From: Rhodoferax sp.
GTDB taxonomy: Bacteria > Pseudomonadota > Gammaproteobacteria > Burkholderiales > Burkholderiaceae_C
Reading direction: 5' to 3'
Length of the DNA: 10,673 nt
Assembly (NCBI GenBank): GCA_018882485.1
Contig: VERU01000049.1
Span: 1 to 10,673 of the forward strand
Part shown: in pieces, positions 4,622-10,673 of the stretch
How positions within the stretch are numbered: position 1 is the first letter of the stretch
Layout: each line of letters opens with the position of its first letter
Translations under genes and position numbers: made by a program
The notes under the pieces: model-generated
What the model saw: the letters and a program-made list of their open reading frames with translations, nothing else
What the model was told of the DNA's origin: nothing
Databases searched by the model: none

Positions 4622-5184
4622 GGTTTGATACCCTTGTTCAGTAATGCGGTCGCCAGAAATTTGACGGCTCTGGAGCAATGTGTCTTAACACTGCCCTCGG
4701 AGCATCCCATCGCGGCGGCCGTCTCAGCGATATCCATCTCCTCCCAGTAACGCAAAAGGAAGGCCTCTCGTTGACGAGCCGGCAATTCTTCAATCTCTCG
4801 TTCAATGATACGCAAGGTTTGTGCCCGCTGAGACAGGGATTCCGGGGTCTCCGAGGCCTGCGATTCACTTGCGGACAGCATATCCTCTACCGCGTCCAGT
4901 TGGGGTAGATCGGAATCCAGCGGTGGGGTTGGCGTGTCCAGAAAAACCGCCTGCCGAGACCGGTTTCGGCGGAACCAGTCGAGGATGTTGTTGGACAGGA
5001 TTCGCTGAAACAACATCGGCAGTTCCGCCGTTGGCTTGTGTGCGTAATGCTCGACCAGCTTCATCATGCTGTCCTGAACAACGTCCAGGGCGTTGTCATC
5101 GTTTCGGAGGTGGAAACTGGCACGTTTGAATGCGCGCTTCTCAACCGATTCGAGAAAATCCGATATTTGCTGCTGAGTTGCCAC
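4618..5184 (-). CDS. ECF-type RNA polymerase sigma factor (sigma-70 family)
   Basis: 188 residues, the usual length for a group 4 (ECF) sigma factor with only regions 2 and 4. Region 2 spans about residues 16-80: AFKRASFHLRNDDNALDVVQ and the -10 recognition helix segment LPMLFQRILSNNILDWFRR. An acidic linker follows (about 85-120). Region 4 spans about 125-180: IEELPARQREAFLLRYWEEM, then the helix-turn-helix DIAETAAAMGCSEGSVKTH, which would contact the -35 element. The start is GTG at 5184; the frame has no ATG upstream before a stop, and the protein then begins MATQQQISDFLESVEKRAFKR, in line with related proteins. No strong Shine-Dalgarno sequence is seen. The gene heads a leftward five-gene unit and is divergent from ilvB. 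Its stop overlaps the DUF3619 start by four bases. Confidence 0.92.
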   Translation of the reverse strand: MATQQQISDFLESVEKRAFKRASFHLRNDDNALDVVQDSMMKLVEHYAHKPTAELPMLFQRILSNNILDWFRRNRSRQAVFLDTPTPPLDSDLPQLDAVEDMLSASESQASETPESLSQRAQTLRIIEREIEELPARQREAFLLRYWEEMDIAETAAAMGCSEGSVKTHCSRAVKFLATALLNKGIKP

Positions 5185-5263
5185 AGTATGGTGGTCGCGT
5201 TCCGTGGCGCCCCGTGCCCCGCCGAGATCGTTGAGGGCGGGGTCAGGACCGCCCTAGAAGCAA

Positions 5264-5272
5264 ATTATGGCA
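5264..5272 (-). promoter_or_regulatory. Candidate extended -10 promoter for the sigma-factor unit
   Basis: The minus strand reads TGC-CATAAT (5272 down to 5264), five of six matches to TATAAT with the TGn extension. No good -35 hexamer sits 16-18 bases upstream. A start near 5257 would give a leader of about 73 nt before the GTG. It could be a chance match, and an autoregulated ECF promoter was not recognised. Confidence 0.3.
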
Positions 5273-5326
5273 CCCGGTGGTCTTGGCGCGCTGCAACGGA
5301 AGCCCAGGGAGCCCGGTCAAGGACGA

Positions 5327-5335
5327 TGCGATAAT
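5327..5335 (+). promoter_or_regulatory. Candidate extended -10 promoter for ilvBNC
   Basis: The plus strand reads TGC-GATAAT, five of six matches to the -10 consensus with the TGn extension. No convincing -35 hexamer is present. Transcription from about 5342 would give a leader of about 144 nt before the ilvB ATG. Confidence 0.3.
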
Positions 5336-5485
5336 CTCGACACACGTCACATTGCAAACGGGTCTTGGTTCGGCAGGTCCACTATCGCTGCCCATGGCTT
5401 TGACCCTAAGCGCTGCGGCGAAGCCACGAGCTTCCGCCCAGGCGTACCCTAGGTCTTTCGTCAGAGAAATTCGCAAAGGTTGATC

Positions 5486-7288
5486 ATGGAAATTTCGAAA
5501 GTTGAAATCAGTTCGGCTGCAGGGGTGGGTCAGAGGTCTCCCTCGGGTTCAGCTTCCTCGTCGCATTCCGAGGAATTGCGCGGAGCCGAGGTGTTGGTGA
5601 AATGCCTACAGGCGGAGGGCGTCAGGTACGTCTGGGGTTATCCCGGCGGCGCGGTCCTGCACATTTACGACGCGTTTTACAAGCAGGACACCATCCAGCA
5701 TGTGCTGGTCAGGCATGAGCAGGCGGCCGTTCACGCCGCCGATGGATATGCTCGGGCAACGGGCGATGTGGGGGTCGCTTTGGTGACATCCGGGCCCGGC
5801 GTGACCAATGCCATTACGGGGATTGCGACCGCCTACATGGACAGCATTCCAATGGTCATCGTCACCGGACAGGTGCCTACCGCGGCCATCGGACTAGACG
5901 CCTTCCAGGAATGCGATACGGTGGGGATCACGCGTCCCATCGTGAAACACAATTTCCTGGTCAAAGACGCTCGAGACATGGCCGAGGTCATGAAAAAGGC
6001 GTTCCATATCGCCCGAAGCGGACGCCCAGGGCCGGTGGTTGTCGACATTCCCAAGGACGTGTCCTTCAAAAAGGTCCCGTACAGCGGCTATCCGACCTCG
6101 GTTGAGATGCGCTCTTACAACCCCGTTCGCAAAGGCCATGGAGGGCAGATCCGCAAGGCCCTGGCTCTGTTACTTGGTGCCAAGCGACCCTATATCTATA
6201 CCGGGGGCGGCGTTCTCATGAGTGAGGCCACCTCGGAACTCAGAGCGTTGGTGGACATGCTCGGCTACCCCTGCACCAACACCCTGATGGGCTTGGGCGC
6301 CTACCCTGCATCCGACAGAAAATTTCTAGGTATGCTGGGCATGCATGGAACTTTCGAGGCGAACAACGCCATGCAGAATTGCGACGTCTTGCTCGCCGTG
6401 GGAGCGCGATTCGATGACCGGGTCATCGGCAATCCCAAGCACTTCGCACAAAACGATCGCAAGATCATACACATTGACATCGATCCCTCCAGCATTTCCA
6501 AACGCGTCAAAGTCGATATTCCAATCGTCGGGGATGTCAAGGATGTGCTGGGTGAAATGATCGCCATGATCCGGGACGGCAACGCTCGCCCTGATGCCCA
6601 AGCTCTGGCCGCTTGGTGGGAAACGATTGAAGGGTGGCGCCGCCGGGAGTGTCTGCGGTACGACCCTGGCAATGGTGAGGTGATCAAGCCCCAATTTGTG
6701 GTCGAAACGCTTTGGAACATGACGCGCGACCGGGAGACCTATATCACTTCTGATGTGGGTCAGCATCAGATGTGGGCCGCTCAGTATTACCGTTTCGACG
6801 AACCTCGTCGGTGGATCAACTCGGGCGGACTCGGGACCATGGGCGTCGGAATTCCCTACGCCATGGGGATCAAGATGGCCAAGCCCGATGCGGAAGTTTT
6901 CTGCATCACGGGGGAGGGTTCGGTCCAAATGTGCATCCAGGAGTTGTCGACCTGCCTGCAGTACAACACCCCCATCAAGATCGTGTCCTTGAACAACCGC
7001 TATCTCGGTATGGTTCGGCAGTGGCAGGAAATCGATTACGAAGGGCGGTACAGCCACAGTTACATGGATGCTTTGCCCAATTTCGTCAAACTGGCTGAAG
7101 CATACGGTCATGTGGGTCTGCTGGTTGAAAAGGCGCAGGATGTGGAACCGGCTTTGCGGGAAGCCCGCAGGCTGAAGGACCGCACGGTTTTCCTGGATTT
7201 TCGGACCGATCCGACCGAGAACGTGTTTCCCATGGTGAAGGCCGGCATGGGGCTGACTGAAATGCTCCTGGGCTCCGAAGACCTTTAA
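5486..7288 (+). CDS. ilvB: Acetohydroxyacid (acetolactate) synthase large subunit
   Basis: 600 residues. This ThDP- and FAD-dependent catalytic subunit condenses pyruvate with pyruvate or 2-oxobutyrate, the first common step to valine, leucine and isoleucine. The start is ATG 5486, with AAAGG (5475-5479) 6 bases upstream. After a Ser-rich N-terminal extension of about 30 residues comes the ThDP PYR domain with GYPGGAVLHIYDAF and the catalytic Glu78 in RHEQAAVHAADGYARA. A central FAD/TH3 domain follows, then the PP domain with the ThDP/Mg motif GEGS (476-479) and the Asn pair at 503-504 (LNNRYLGMVRQW). The motif has Glu where many ThDP enzymes have Asp (GDGS). I recall this as normal in proteobacterial enzymes of this clade, and it is conservative for Mg2+ binding. 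ilvN follows after 83 bases. The protein is full length, with no frameshift. Confidence 0.97.
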   Translation: MEISKVEISSAAGVGQRSPSGSASSSHSEELRGAEVLVKCLQAEGVRYVWGYPGGAVLHIYDAFYKQDTIQHVLVRHEQAAVHAADGYARATGDVGVALVTSGPGVTNAITGIATAYMDSIPMVIVTGQVPTAAIGLDAFQECDTVGITRPIVKHNFLVKDARDMAEVMKKAFHIARSGRPGPVVVDIPKDVSFKKVPYSGYPTSVEMRSYNPVRKGHGGQIRKALALLLGAKRPYIYTGGGVLMSEATSELRALVDMLGYPCTNTLMGLGAYPASDRKFLGMLGMHGTFEANNAMQNCDVLLAVGARFDDRVIGNPKHFAQNDRKIIHIDIDPSSISKRVKVDIPIVGDVKDVLGEMIAMIRDGNARPDAQALAAWWETIEGWRRRECLRYDPGNGEVIKPQFVVETLWNMTRDRETYITSDVGQHQMWAAQYYRFDEPRRWINSGGLGTMGVGIPYAMGIKMAKPDAEVFCITGEGSVQMCIQELSTCLQYNTPIKIVSLNNRYLGMVRQWQEIDYEGRYSHSYMDALPNFVKLAEAYGHVGLLVEKAQDVEPALREARRLKDRTVFLDFRTDPTENVFPMVKAGMGLTEMLLGSEDL

Positions 7289-8917: not shown

Positions 8918-8953
8918 GTAGCAAAGGCCACTTCGGTGGCCTTTGCTACTTTT
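8918..8953 (+). terminator. Intrinsic terminator of the ilvBNC operon
   Basis: A perfect 14-bp inverted repeat, GTAGCAAAGGCCAC (8918-8931) with GTGGCCTTTGCTAC (8936-8949), is closed by a TTCG tetraloop and followed by four T residues (8950-8953). The stem is very stable and the T-run is short. It begins 14 bases after the ilvC stop and ends 28 bases before the pssA start codon. Confidence 0.9.
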
Positions 8954-8981: not shown

Positions 8982-9797
8982 ATGCACGACGGCCAGGAAA
9001 CCCATCTCGCCGAGGGCGAACCGGTGATGGTTCGCAAGCGACGCAAGGGCATTTATATTCTGCCCAACCTGTTCACTTTGGCCGCCCTTTTTGGTGGTTT
9101 CTATGCCATGGTCATGGCGATCAACGGGCGGTTTGACCTGGCAGCCGTGGGTATTTTCTGTTCAATGGTACTGGACAGCCTGGATGGCCGTGTCGCCCGC
9201 ATGACCAACACCCAGAGTGCGTTTGGCGAACAGATGGACTCCTTGTCCGATATGGTTTCTTTCGGTGCCGCACCGGCCATCATGGCTTACGTCTGGGCCC
9301 TGCAGGTTCTGGGTCGATGGGGCTGGGTGGCTGCTTTCGTGTACTGTGCTTGTGCCGCGCTGCGTTTGGCCCGATTCAACGTCAACACGGGCGTGGTCGA
9401 CAAACGGTATTTTCAGGGGCTGCCATCTCCTGCCGCTGCAGCGCTGATCGCTGGTTTCGTCTGGCTGATGACCGAGCAGGGCGTCAAGGGTTCGGCCGTG
9501 GCCTGGCCGATGTTTGCTCTGGCCTTGTTCTCGGGTTTGACGATGGTGACCAACGTACCTTTTTACAGCTTCAAGGACATCCACATGAAAAGGAGTGTCC
9601 CCTTTGCCGTGATTGTCATGATTGCCTTGCTGATCGCTGCCGTCACCATCGATCCACCAACAGTGATTTTTGCGGTCTGTGTGGTCTATGGGCTCAGTGG
9701 CTATGGTGTCTATGTCTGGCGCAAAAGCCGGGGCGTTCAGACTAGCGTCATCAGCACATCAACGCAAGAGCCTGAGGAGCGCGGCCTGCATCAATAG
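8982..9797 (+). CDS. pssA: CDP-diacylglycerol-serine O-phosphatidyltransferase (phosphatidylserine synthase)
   Basis: 271 residues. This integral inner-membrane enzyme makes phosphatidylserine from CDP-diacylglycerol and serine, the first committed step to phosphatidylethanolamine. The CDP-alcohol phosphotransferase signature D-x2-D-G-x2-A-R-x8-G-x3-D-x3-D is complete (Asp65, Asp68, Gly69, Ala72, Arg73, Gly82, Asp86, Asp90). Hydrophobic segments lie at about 27-47, 52-66, 93-110, 114-131, 148-164, 172-190, 206-222 and 226-245. The family has six or more helices, so some of these may be re-entrant or joined. The start is ATG 8982 with GGAG (8969-8972) nine bases upstream; ATG 9027 (MVRKRRKGIYILPN) is a shorter alternative. 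The gene sits between the ilvC terminator and the leuA leader, a common betaproteobacterial position. No psd gene is adjacent. Confidence 0.95.
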   Translation: MHDGQETHLAEGEPVMVRKRRKGIYILPNLFTLAALFGGFYAMVMAINGRFDLAAVGIFCSMVLDSLDGRVARMTNTQSAFGEQMDSLSDMVSFGAAPAIMAYVWALQVLGRWGWVAAFVYCACAALRLARFNVNTGVVDKRYFQGLPSPAAAALIAGFVWLMTEQGVKGSAVAWPMFALALFSGLTMVTNVPFYSFKDIHMKRSVPFAVIVMIALLIAAVTIDPPTVIFAVCVVYGLSGYGVYVWRKSRGVQTSVISTSTQEPEERGLHQ

Positions 9798-9825: not shown

Positions 9826-9835
9826 TCGGACTTTG

Positions 9836-9844
9836 TGCTACATT
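9836..9844 (+). promoter_or_regulatory. Candidate extended -10 promoter for the leuA leader
   Basis: TGC-TACATT matches the extended -10 form (TGn plus four of six bases). TTGCCA (9820-9825) resembles a -35 hexamer, but the spacing is only 13 bases, so the -35 assignment is poor. From this -10 the expected start is at about 9851-9852, which coincides with the ATG of the leader peptide. Confidence 0.35.
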
Positions 9845-9851
9845 GACTGTC

Positions 9852-9905
9852 ATGAAAAGCAAATTGCTATCGCTACGACTGTGCACCATGAGGTGTAGCG
9901 GGTAG
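9852..9905 (+). CDS. Putative leucine leader peptide of the leuA attenuator
   Basis: A 17-codon frame reads [17 protein letters not shown], then TAG. Four of codons 5-10 are leucine (TTG, CTA, CTA, CTG). Two are CTA, a codon I see only occasionally in the neighbouring genes, as expected for a codon chosen to slow ribosomes when leucyl-tRNA is scarce. The frame sits upstream of a strong terminator and then leuA, the first enzyme of leucine synthesis. No Shine-Dalgarno sequence precedes the ATG. Translation may be leaderless if the transcript starts at the candidate promoter just upstream. The peptide would act in cis by the position of its ribosome. Translation is inferred. Confidence 0.6.
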
Positions 9906-9926
9906 CGCGTGCGCAGATTTGCTCCA

Positions 9927-9961
9927 GGCCCGCAAGCGTTCGCTGCGGGCCTTTTTGTTTT
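9927..9961 (+). terminator. Intrinsic terminator in the leuA leader (attenuator)
   Basis: GGCCCGCA (9927-9934) pairs perfectly with TGCGGGCC (9944-9951), with two further inner G-C pairs possible. The run TTTTTGTTTT (9952-9961) follows directly. It is a canonical intrinsic terminator. It lies 129 bases after the pssA stop but only 47 bases before the leuA start, and directly behind the leader peptide. That placement favours an attenuator over a simple pssA terminator. Confidence 0.88.
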
Positions 9962-10008
9962 GTAGCGGCGAACGCGAACTCAATCCACCCACCAGCAAGG
10001 TATCCACC

Positions 10009-10673
10009 ATGTCAGACCAATTGATCATATTCGACACCACGTTGCGCGATGGCGAGCAATCGCCAGGCGCTTCCATGACACGGGATGAAAAGCTGCGTAT
10101 TGCCCGTCAGTTGGAGCGGCTCAAGGTAGATGTGATCGAGGCAGGATTTGCGGCAAGTTCGAACGGGGATTTCGAGGCGGTGCAGGCCATTGCCCATGCC
10201 ATCAAGGATTCCCGGGTGTGCTCGCTGTCCAGGGCGAACGATCGCGATATATCCCGTGCCGCAGAGGCCCTCAAGGGGGCGAACAGTGCCCGAATCCACA
10301 CCTTCATTGCAACGTCTCCGCTGCATATGGAGAAGAAACTGCGCATGACCCCGGACCAGGTCTTCGAACAGGCCAAGCTGGCGGTACGCTTTGCCAGAAA
10401 TCTGGTCGACGATATCGAATTCAGTCCGGAGGACGGCTATCGCAGCGACCCTGATTTCCTGTGCCGTGTGATCGAGGCCGTGATCCGCGAGGGCGCCCGA
10501 ACCATCAACGTCCCGGATACGGTCGGGTATGCCATACCTGAACTGTATGGCCAGTTCATCCGGAACCTTCGTGAGCGCATCCCCAACTCAGACCAGGCCA
10601 TCTGGTCGGTTCATTGCCACAACGATCTGGGCATGGCGGTGGCCAATTCGCTGGCGGGCGTGAAGATTTGGGG
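10009..10673 (+). CDS. leuA: 2-isopropylmalate synthase (5' part, runs off the window)
   Basis: The first 221 codons are present and the gene continues past the right edge. The full-length enzyme is usually around 510-570 residues. LeuA condenses 2-ketoisovalerate with acetyl-CoA, the committed step of leucine synthesis, and is normally feedback-inhibited by leucine through a C-terminal domain not seen here. The TIM-barrel start is clear: [17 protein letters not shown], with Arg13 and Asp14 at the active site, and the metal-binding His202-x-His204 in [15 protein letters not shown]. The start is ATG 10009, with AAGG (9997-10000) eight bases upstream. Expression is probably controlled by the leader attenuator directly upstream. 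Confidence 0.96.

Follow-up and report, generated by a model that had tools for sequence, protein, structure and literature searches.

The gap between pssA and leuA in the Rhodoferax stretch analysed here (10,673 nucleotides, hereafter the window) very probably holds a leucine-responsive transcription attenuator of the classical type acting on leuA, as judged from sequence. The parts of such an attenuator are found in this gap, namely a leucine-rich leader reading frame, an intrinsic terminator before leuA and, by prediction, an antiterminator competing with that terminator. An earlier note on this DNA had already proposed a leucine attenuator in which a stalled ribosome blocks the terminator, and this notion is strongly supported by conservation, whereas the antiterminator register named there is not. 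The features of the window are the following.

8982..9797, forward strand: pssA (phosphatidylserine synthase), open reading frame named as in the earlier note, bait for fetching relatives
9833..9844, forward strand: putative extended -10 promoter element TTGTGCTACATT with -10 hexamer at 9839-9844, conserved TGNTRNNNT word
9852..9905, forward strand: leader peptide reading frame of 17 codons plus TAG, ATG at 9852 and TAG at 9903-9905, probably leaderless start
9864..9881, forward strand: putative leucine control codons 5 (TTG), 6 (CTA), 8 (CTA) and 10 (CTG), from codon conservation in relatives
9871..9907, forward strand: core of the 1:2 (protector) hairpin, CGCTAC 9871-9876 with GTAGCG 9902-9907, predicted fold of 9852-9926
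9858-9864 with 9917-9923, forward strand: outer extension of the 1:2 hairpin, predicted fold of 9852-9926
9898..9903, forward strand: segment 2, antiterminator 5' arm GCGGGT, predicted to pair with 9928-9933, family counterpart usually ACGGGC
9904..9923, forward strand: inner part of the antiterminator, AGCG 9904-9907 with TGCT 9920-9923, predicted fold
9926..9956, forward strand: intrinsic terminator, 9926-9934 with 9944-9952 and a T-run from 9952, from fold prediction and conservation
9928-9933, forward strand: segment 3, terminator 5' arm GCCCGC, predicted antiterminator partner
10009..10673, forward strand: leuA (2-isopropylmalate synthase), truncated by the window end, named from the earlier note and from sequence resemblance

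The list of open reading frames gives TTG at 8943 as the start of the pssA frame. No obvious attenuator was seen on reading the region upstream of ilvI (5180-5500 of the window) by eye, and a plasmid search found no similar DNA.

Conservation and distribution

The 80 best pssA relatives from named genomes and the window locus make up a set of 81 pssA loci, in which the gaps between pssA and leuA were read, and a leader homologue is found in 68 of them. LeuA of the window's type is 85-92% identical across these loci, drawn as they are from the best 80 pssA relatives. When 44 of the 67 leaders of the set other than the window's were used to build a covariance model, it matched the window at 9852-9958 with 69.1 bits (E 1.7e-19), and beyond this it gives in the window only a weak match on the opposite strand, over the terminator (19.4 bits, E 0.00015). 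Comparison of sequences confirms the leader and terminator as more than chance, that is, as a real member of a conserved family. The earlier note had suggested aligning the pssA-leuA gaps of Comamonadaceae, and in the present set, which consists mostly of such relatives, the frame, its leucine codons and the terminator are indeed conserved, but the antiterminator hardly covaries.

A second covariance model, built from all 68 leaders with the window included, was used for searching genomes. At E<=0.01 it matches in 54 of 60 genomes from the genus (best E 8.2e-17 or better in 50 genomes, weak at 0.002-0.008 in four), and within the family 224 of 397 genomes that are at least 90% complete match at E<=1e-6, spread over 80 of 126 genera. 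From a draw of 300 genomes of the order 14 match at E<=1e-5, eight being of the same family, the window's genome included, and six lying outside it; among the latter, L153-L155 of one genus are convincing leaders before leuA, L156 and L159 turned out to be false model matches, and L158 is the sixth. The source genome itself has one strong match only, and a second one (G000 C102, E 0.004) was rejected as a leader, consisting of an alanine-/lysine-rich gene end and then a terminator, with no leucine-rich frame seen.

After removal of duplicates the parsed leaders number 153, a figure that refers to parsed loci and not to every matched genome; L158 and L173 were unparsed, and the weak own-genome matches L113-L119 were left out. 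Counts given below on 170 leaders, like any made on 172, include duplicates, and the recount on 153 is preferred where it was made. All but one of the 153 distinct leaders lie before leuA, 101 preceding leuA of the window's type and 51 a second type, and the remaining one is at a contig end.

The second leuA type (566 aa in L070, MLKQPASKYPAF...) sits between the leader and the usual leuA in L022, L025 and L070, and its presence was deduced from gap length and matches in 13 further pssA loci, whose gaps measure 1.7-2.0 kb. In L036 the 345-nt gap between leader and leuA holds a frame starting like the second type (MLKQP...), which looks like a leftover. One genome, G103, has two leaders, one per leuA type (L145 and L187).

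The 13 of the 81 pssA loci that were not counted as having leaders comprise eight with leuA adjacent to pssA, three with no leuA match in the locus (L011, L016 and L033), and L057 and L077. In the first eight (L014, L020, L045, L050, L062, L063, L075 and L080) leuA follows 16-67 nt after pssA and the leader is missing, as though the entire module had been lost; the leader is therefore dispensable in some species. When applied to the 13 uncounted loci, the window-free model finds only two of them, L077 with 53.7 bits and L057 with 24 bits and a weak antisense match. L077 has a leader frame at 4873-4948 without a terminator of the usual form directly downstream, and L057, from Paracidovorax citrulli, has kept the promoter-like box and the terminator at 4858-4956 with no leucine-rich frame.

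Terminator and predicted antiterminator

The terminator at 9926-9953 folds at -20.5 kcal/mol and is followed by TTTTTGTTTT, and the strong terminator with T-run that the earlier note had placed at 9927-9951 is thereby confirmed. The predicted fold of 9852-9970 as a whole has a z of -2.68 against dinucleotide shuffles and was equalled by one of 200 shuffles. In 65 distinct rows of the alignment 99.8% of the terminator cells are paired, and 24 cells are doubly changed against a shuffle mean of 7.8; only two pairs are doubly changed, a number not above that of the shuffles. That the terminator core and the 5' arm do not vary is partly an effect of selection, since the leader parser demanded a GCCCG...CGGGC core, and L173, a true leader, was lost to that rule. 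This leader (genome G380) precedes the second leuA type, and its core GCTCG/CGAGC is a compensated change unseen in the parsed leaders, from which it was excluded by the parser's pattern.

The best partner of the terminator 5' arm, GCCCG(T/C), is a segment that usually reads ACGGGC and stands, for 142 of the 153 distinct leaders, exactly at -14 from the stop codon. All five of its core positions are paired in 151 leaders, and in as many at least four of the six antiterminator pairs lie within the predicted minimum-energy fold of the stretch from segment to arm; one of the six is missing in 31 of 170 leaders, duplicates included, and in 29 of these it is the outermost. By prediction and conservation it is this segment upstream of the stop, paired with the terminator 5' arm, that forms the conserved antiterminator, in the window 9898-9903 with 9928-9933. 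Folding of 9898-9938 alone, that is without the terminator 3' arm, gives this helix in a structure of -14.5 kcal/mol with pairing probabilities of 0.94-0.99. The presence of the segment in predicted folds is partly to be expected, since it was picked as the best complement of the arm, but its fixed position relative to the stop is an independent fact. Furthermore, since the antiterminator hardly varies, this pairing yields almost no covariation.

Attenuation could also be imagined to proceed through the antiterminator of the earlier note, 9906-9913 with 9931-9938, the geometry of which is plausible and which is able to form in the window in so far as seven of its eight positions pair on inspection. 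When forced in the fold of 9898-9938, however, this helix reaches only -7.0 kcal/mol with a probability of 0.0, being 7.5 kcal/mol weaker than the one above, and it is not preferred in relatives, since its register has on average 4.9 of 8 pairs in the 153 distinct leaders and comes fifth of 50 registers tried (5.02 against 5.24 for the best, in 170 leaders including duplicates). This register was thus not borne out, and we regard attenuation by way of it as very improbable.

The segment before the stop is itself predicted to be engaged in the 1:2 hairpin, where Leu codon 8 of the window (9873-9875) faces the stop codon within 9871-9876:9902-9907. The stop is likewise predicted to pair in frame with a CTA or CTG leucine codon in 139 of the 153 distinct leaders. 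The outer 1:2 helix is paired in 91.3% of cells in 107 leaders, compared to 19.5-64.5% when slid, and its doubly changed cells number 16, where shuffles reach 12 at most. Support for the hairpin's inner half is poor in the same 107 leaders, 64.0% of its cells being paired versus 76.5% after a slide by -1, and little of it survives in the RNAalifold consensus of the full alignment; the structure of the linker is mildly better than that of shuffles (mean z -0.88). It should also be mentioned that the window is an outlier of its family, with Leu9 replaced by Arg, a divergent C-terminal half of the peptide and the segment at -5 instead of -14.

Leader peptide and putative promoter

The 17-residue frame of the earlier note, its stop and its leucine codons hold up, codons 5-10 reading TTG CTA TCG CTA CGA CTG with four leucines in six codons, two of them CTA; the CGA (Arg) of codon 9 is replaced by leucine in most relatives. 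Leaders of the pssA set are 17-20 residues long (exactly 17 in 51 of 68), have a CTA-rich leucine run and typically take the form MKxISLALLLSxxGRRR, leucine making up 0.246 of the residues, and they end in TAG in 67 of 68 cases. In the 107 distinct leaders of 17 codons leucine occupies codons 6, 8, 9 and 10 in 101, 107, 96 and 102 cases, respectively, and the invariant leucine of codon 8 is encoded by CTA in 98 and by CTG in nine, an alternation that is likewise seen at codons 6 and 10. CTA accounts for 375 of 683 leucine codons in the 153 distinct leaders as against 38 of 1,996 in pssA of the 81 loci, and seven genes of the window have it in 4 of their 183 leucine codons. UAG is the stop in 146 of the 153. 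Glycine is encoded by GGG in 154 of 167 cases in the leaders compared to 332 of 1,982 in pssA, an excess that is unexplained by selection on the peptide and therefore points to an RNA constraint on the Gly codon. From the codon pattern we infer that the leader frame is translated.

A TGNTRNNNT word is found 6 or 7 nt upstream of the ATG in 66 of the 68 pssA-locus leaders (consensus TTGTGNTACATT), and no conserved -35 element is found among the same 68. The spacing from the -10 element to the ATG is 7 nt in the window and 6 or 7 nt in 136 of the 153 distinct leaders, nine others having the -10 word 8-9 nt away and eight having no -10-like word at an accepted distance. Transcription starts about 7 nt downstream of a -10 element, and given this spacing the first base of the RNA would fall at or beside the leader start codon. 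Shine-Dalgarno-like words precede the leader ATG in only 3 of 153 distinct leaders as compared to 75 of 76 leuA starts. The leader mRNA is therefore probably leaderless, since the -10 element ends 6-7 nt before the ATG and Shine-Dalgarno-like words are rare.

These observations also bear on the explanation that the hairpin merely ends the transcripts of the ilv-pssA operon upstream and that the short frame arose by chance. The terminator does lie downstream of pssA and on its strand, and operons commonly end in a terminator, but a promoter-like box at a fixed distance from the frame stands between pssA and the terminator, and conservation with synonymous change is seen for the frame, its leucine codons and its stop. 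Moreover, every one of the 89 distinct leaders parsed from the model searches precedes a leuA, and we therefore give a terminator of pssA alone hardly any credence.

Relation to known systems

Rfam 15 gives no match at gathering threshold in the window, the sub-threshold scores including P9 (19.9 bits versus 43), trpB (19.9 versus 59) and Thr_leader (17.3 versus 55), and in six relative loci there is none at the leader. The only match in those six is to the ilvH RNA (RF02993, 98 bits versus a threshold of 55.1) at 2121-2188 of L064, upstream of pssA in a Polaromonas relative. The idea that, instead of a translating ribosome, a ligand or protein reads the leader RNA, as in a riboswitch or with a leucine-binding regulator, draws on the strong RNA conservation around GGGCGGAGACGGTAGCGCACGCG, but is made most unlikely by the conservation of leucine at the codon level with synonymous change, by an antiterminator position tied to the stop codon and by this absence of Rfam families at threshold from the window and from the leaders of the six relatives.

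The leu leader of E. coli and Salmonella uses rare CUA codons. The leuL leader of the leuABCD operon of these bacteria is like the present one in having a short leucine-rich leader peptide, a terminator before leuA and a competing antiterminator. The leader of the Rhodoferax family differs in usually having 17-18 codons, a probable leaderless start and a stop predicted to pair with a leucine codon, and in its lack of an Rfam match at threshold.

Among the actinobacteria, Streptomyces lividans has the short peptides LeuL1 and LeuL2, with leucine runs, before leuA and leuS, and these are described as leaderless in PMC8079986, a trait that is probable here as well. LeuL1, which from the wording of that paper appears to be the leader of leuA, is without a typical Rho-independent terminator (PMC8079986). 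In PMC1262725 actinobacterial leuA leaders are described as the LEU element, which may form a pseudoknot by pairing of the leucine codon run with the Shine-Dalgarno box of leuA. In contrast to the LEU element and LeuL1, there is a clear terminator here, and the predicted partner of the leucine codons is the region of the leader stop. A proteobacterial attenuator with a leaderless type of leader is the trpL of Sinorhizobium meliloti (rnTrpL, peTrpL), where according to PMC7298713 the RNA begins with the ATG of the leader frame and may act as a leaderless mRNA; there it is tryptophan and not leucine that is sensed, and the system has trans functions. No description of the present leader family was found in the open-access literature as searched by title and opening of the abstract, a search that did not extend to the 2004 survey of proteobacterial attenuators by Vitreschak et al. 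(cited in PMC1262725), and a term search of the main text of PMC2965389 found no mention of leuA or leucine.

Proposed mechanism

Transcription would begin on or beside the A of the leader ATG, and the leader mRNA would therefore be read without a ribosome-binding site. With ample charged leucyl-tRNA, the ribosome would reach the UAG and cover the adjacent GCGGGT, and the GC-rich terminator would form. When leucine is short, the ribosome would wait at the leucine codons among codons 5-10, breaking the hairpin between leucine codon and stop and leaving GCGGGT free to capture the terminator 5' arm GCCCGC, and the polymerase would continue into leuA. If there is no translation at all, the hairpin would hold GCGGGT and the terminator would again be expected to form. 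Given the size of the ribosome footprint, the segment at -14 to -9 would lie under a ribosome terminating at the stop and not under one waiting at leucine codons 6-9.

A bolder reading, which as a whole we consider rather unlikely, sees in this leader a minimal attenuator of about 105 nt, family-wide and unlisted in Rfam, whose transcript begins at the start codon and whose sensing CUA pairs in frame with the UAG, such that decoding of leucine and release would take place on the two strands of one helix, and whose short RNA, being frequently released, could act in trans as described for rnTrpL. The attenuator of leuA proposed here would give leucine synthesis a concrete, testable point of control in many bacteria, with matches in 80 of the 126 genera of the family, and the CUA:UAG pairing would account for two oddities of the leaders, their rare CUA codons and the prevalence of UAG as stop.
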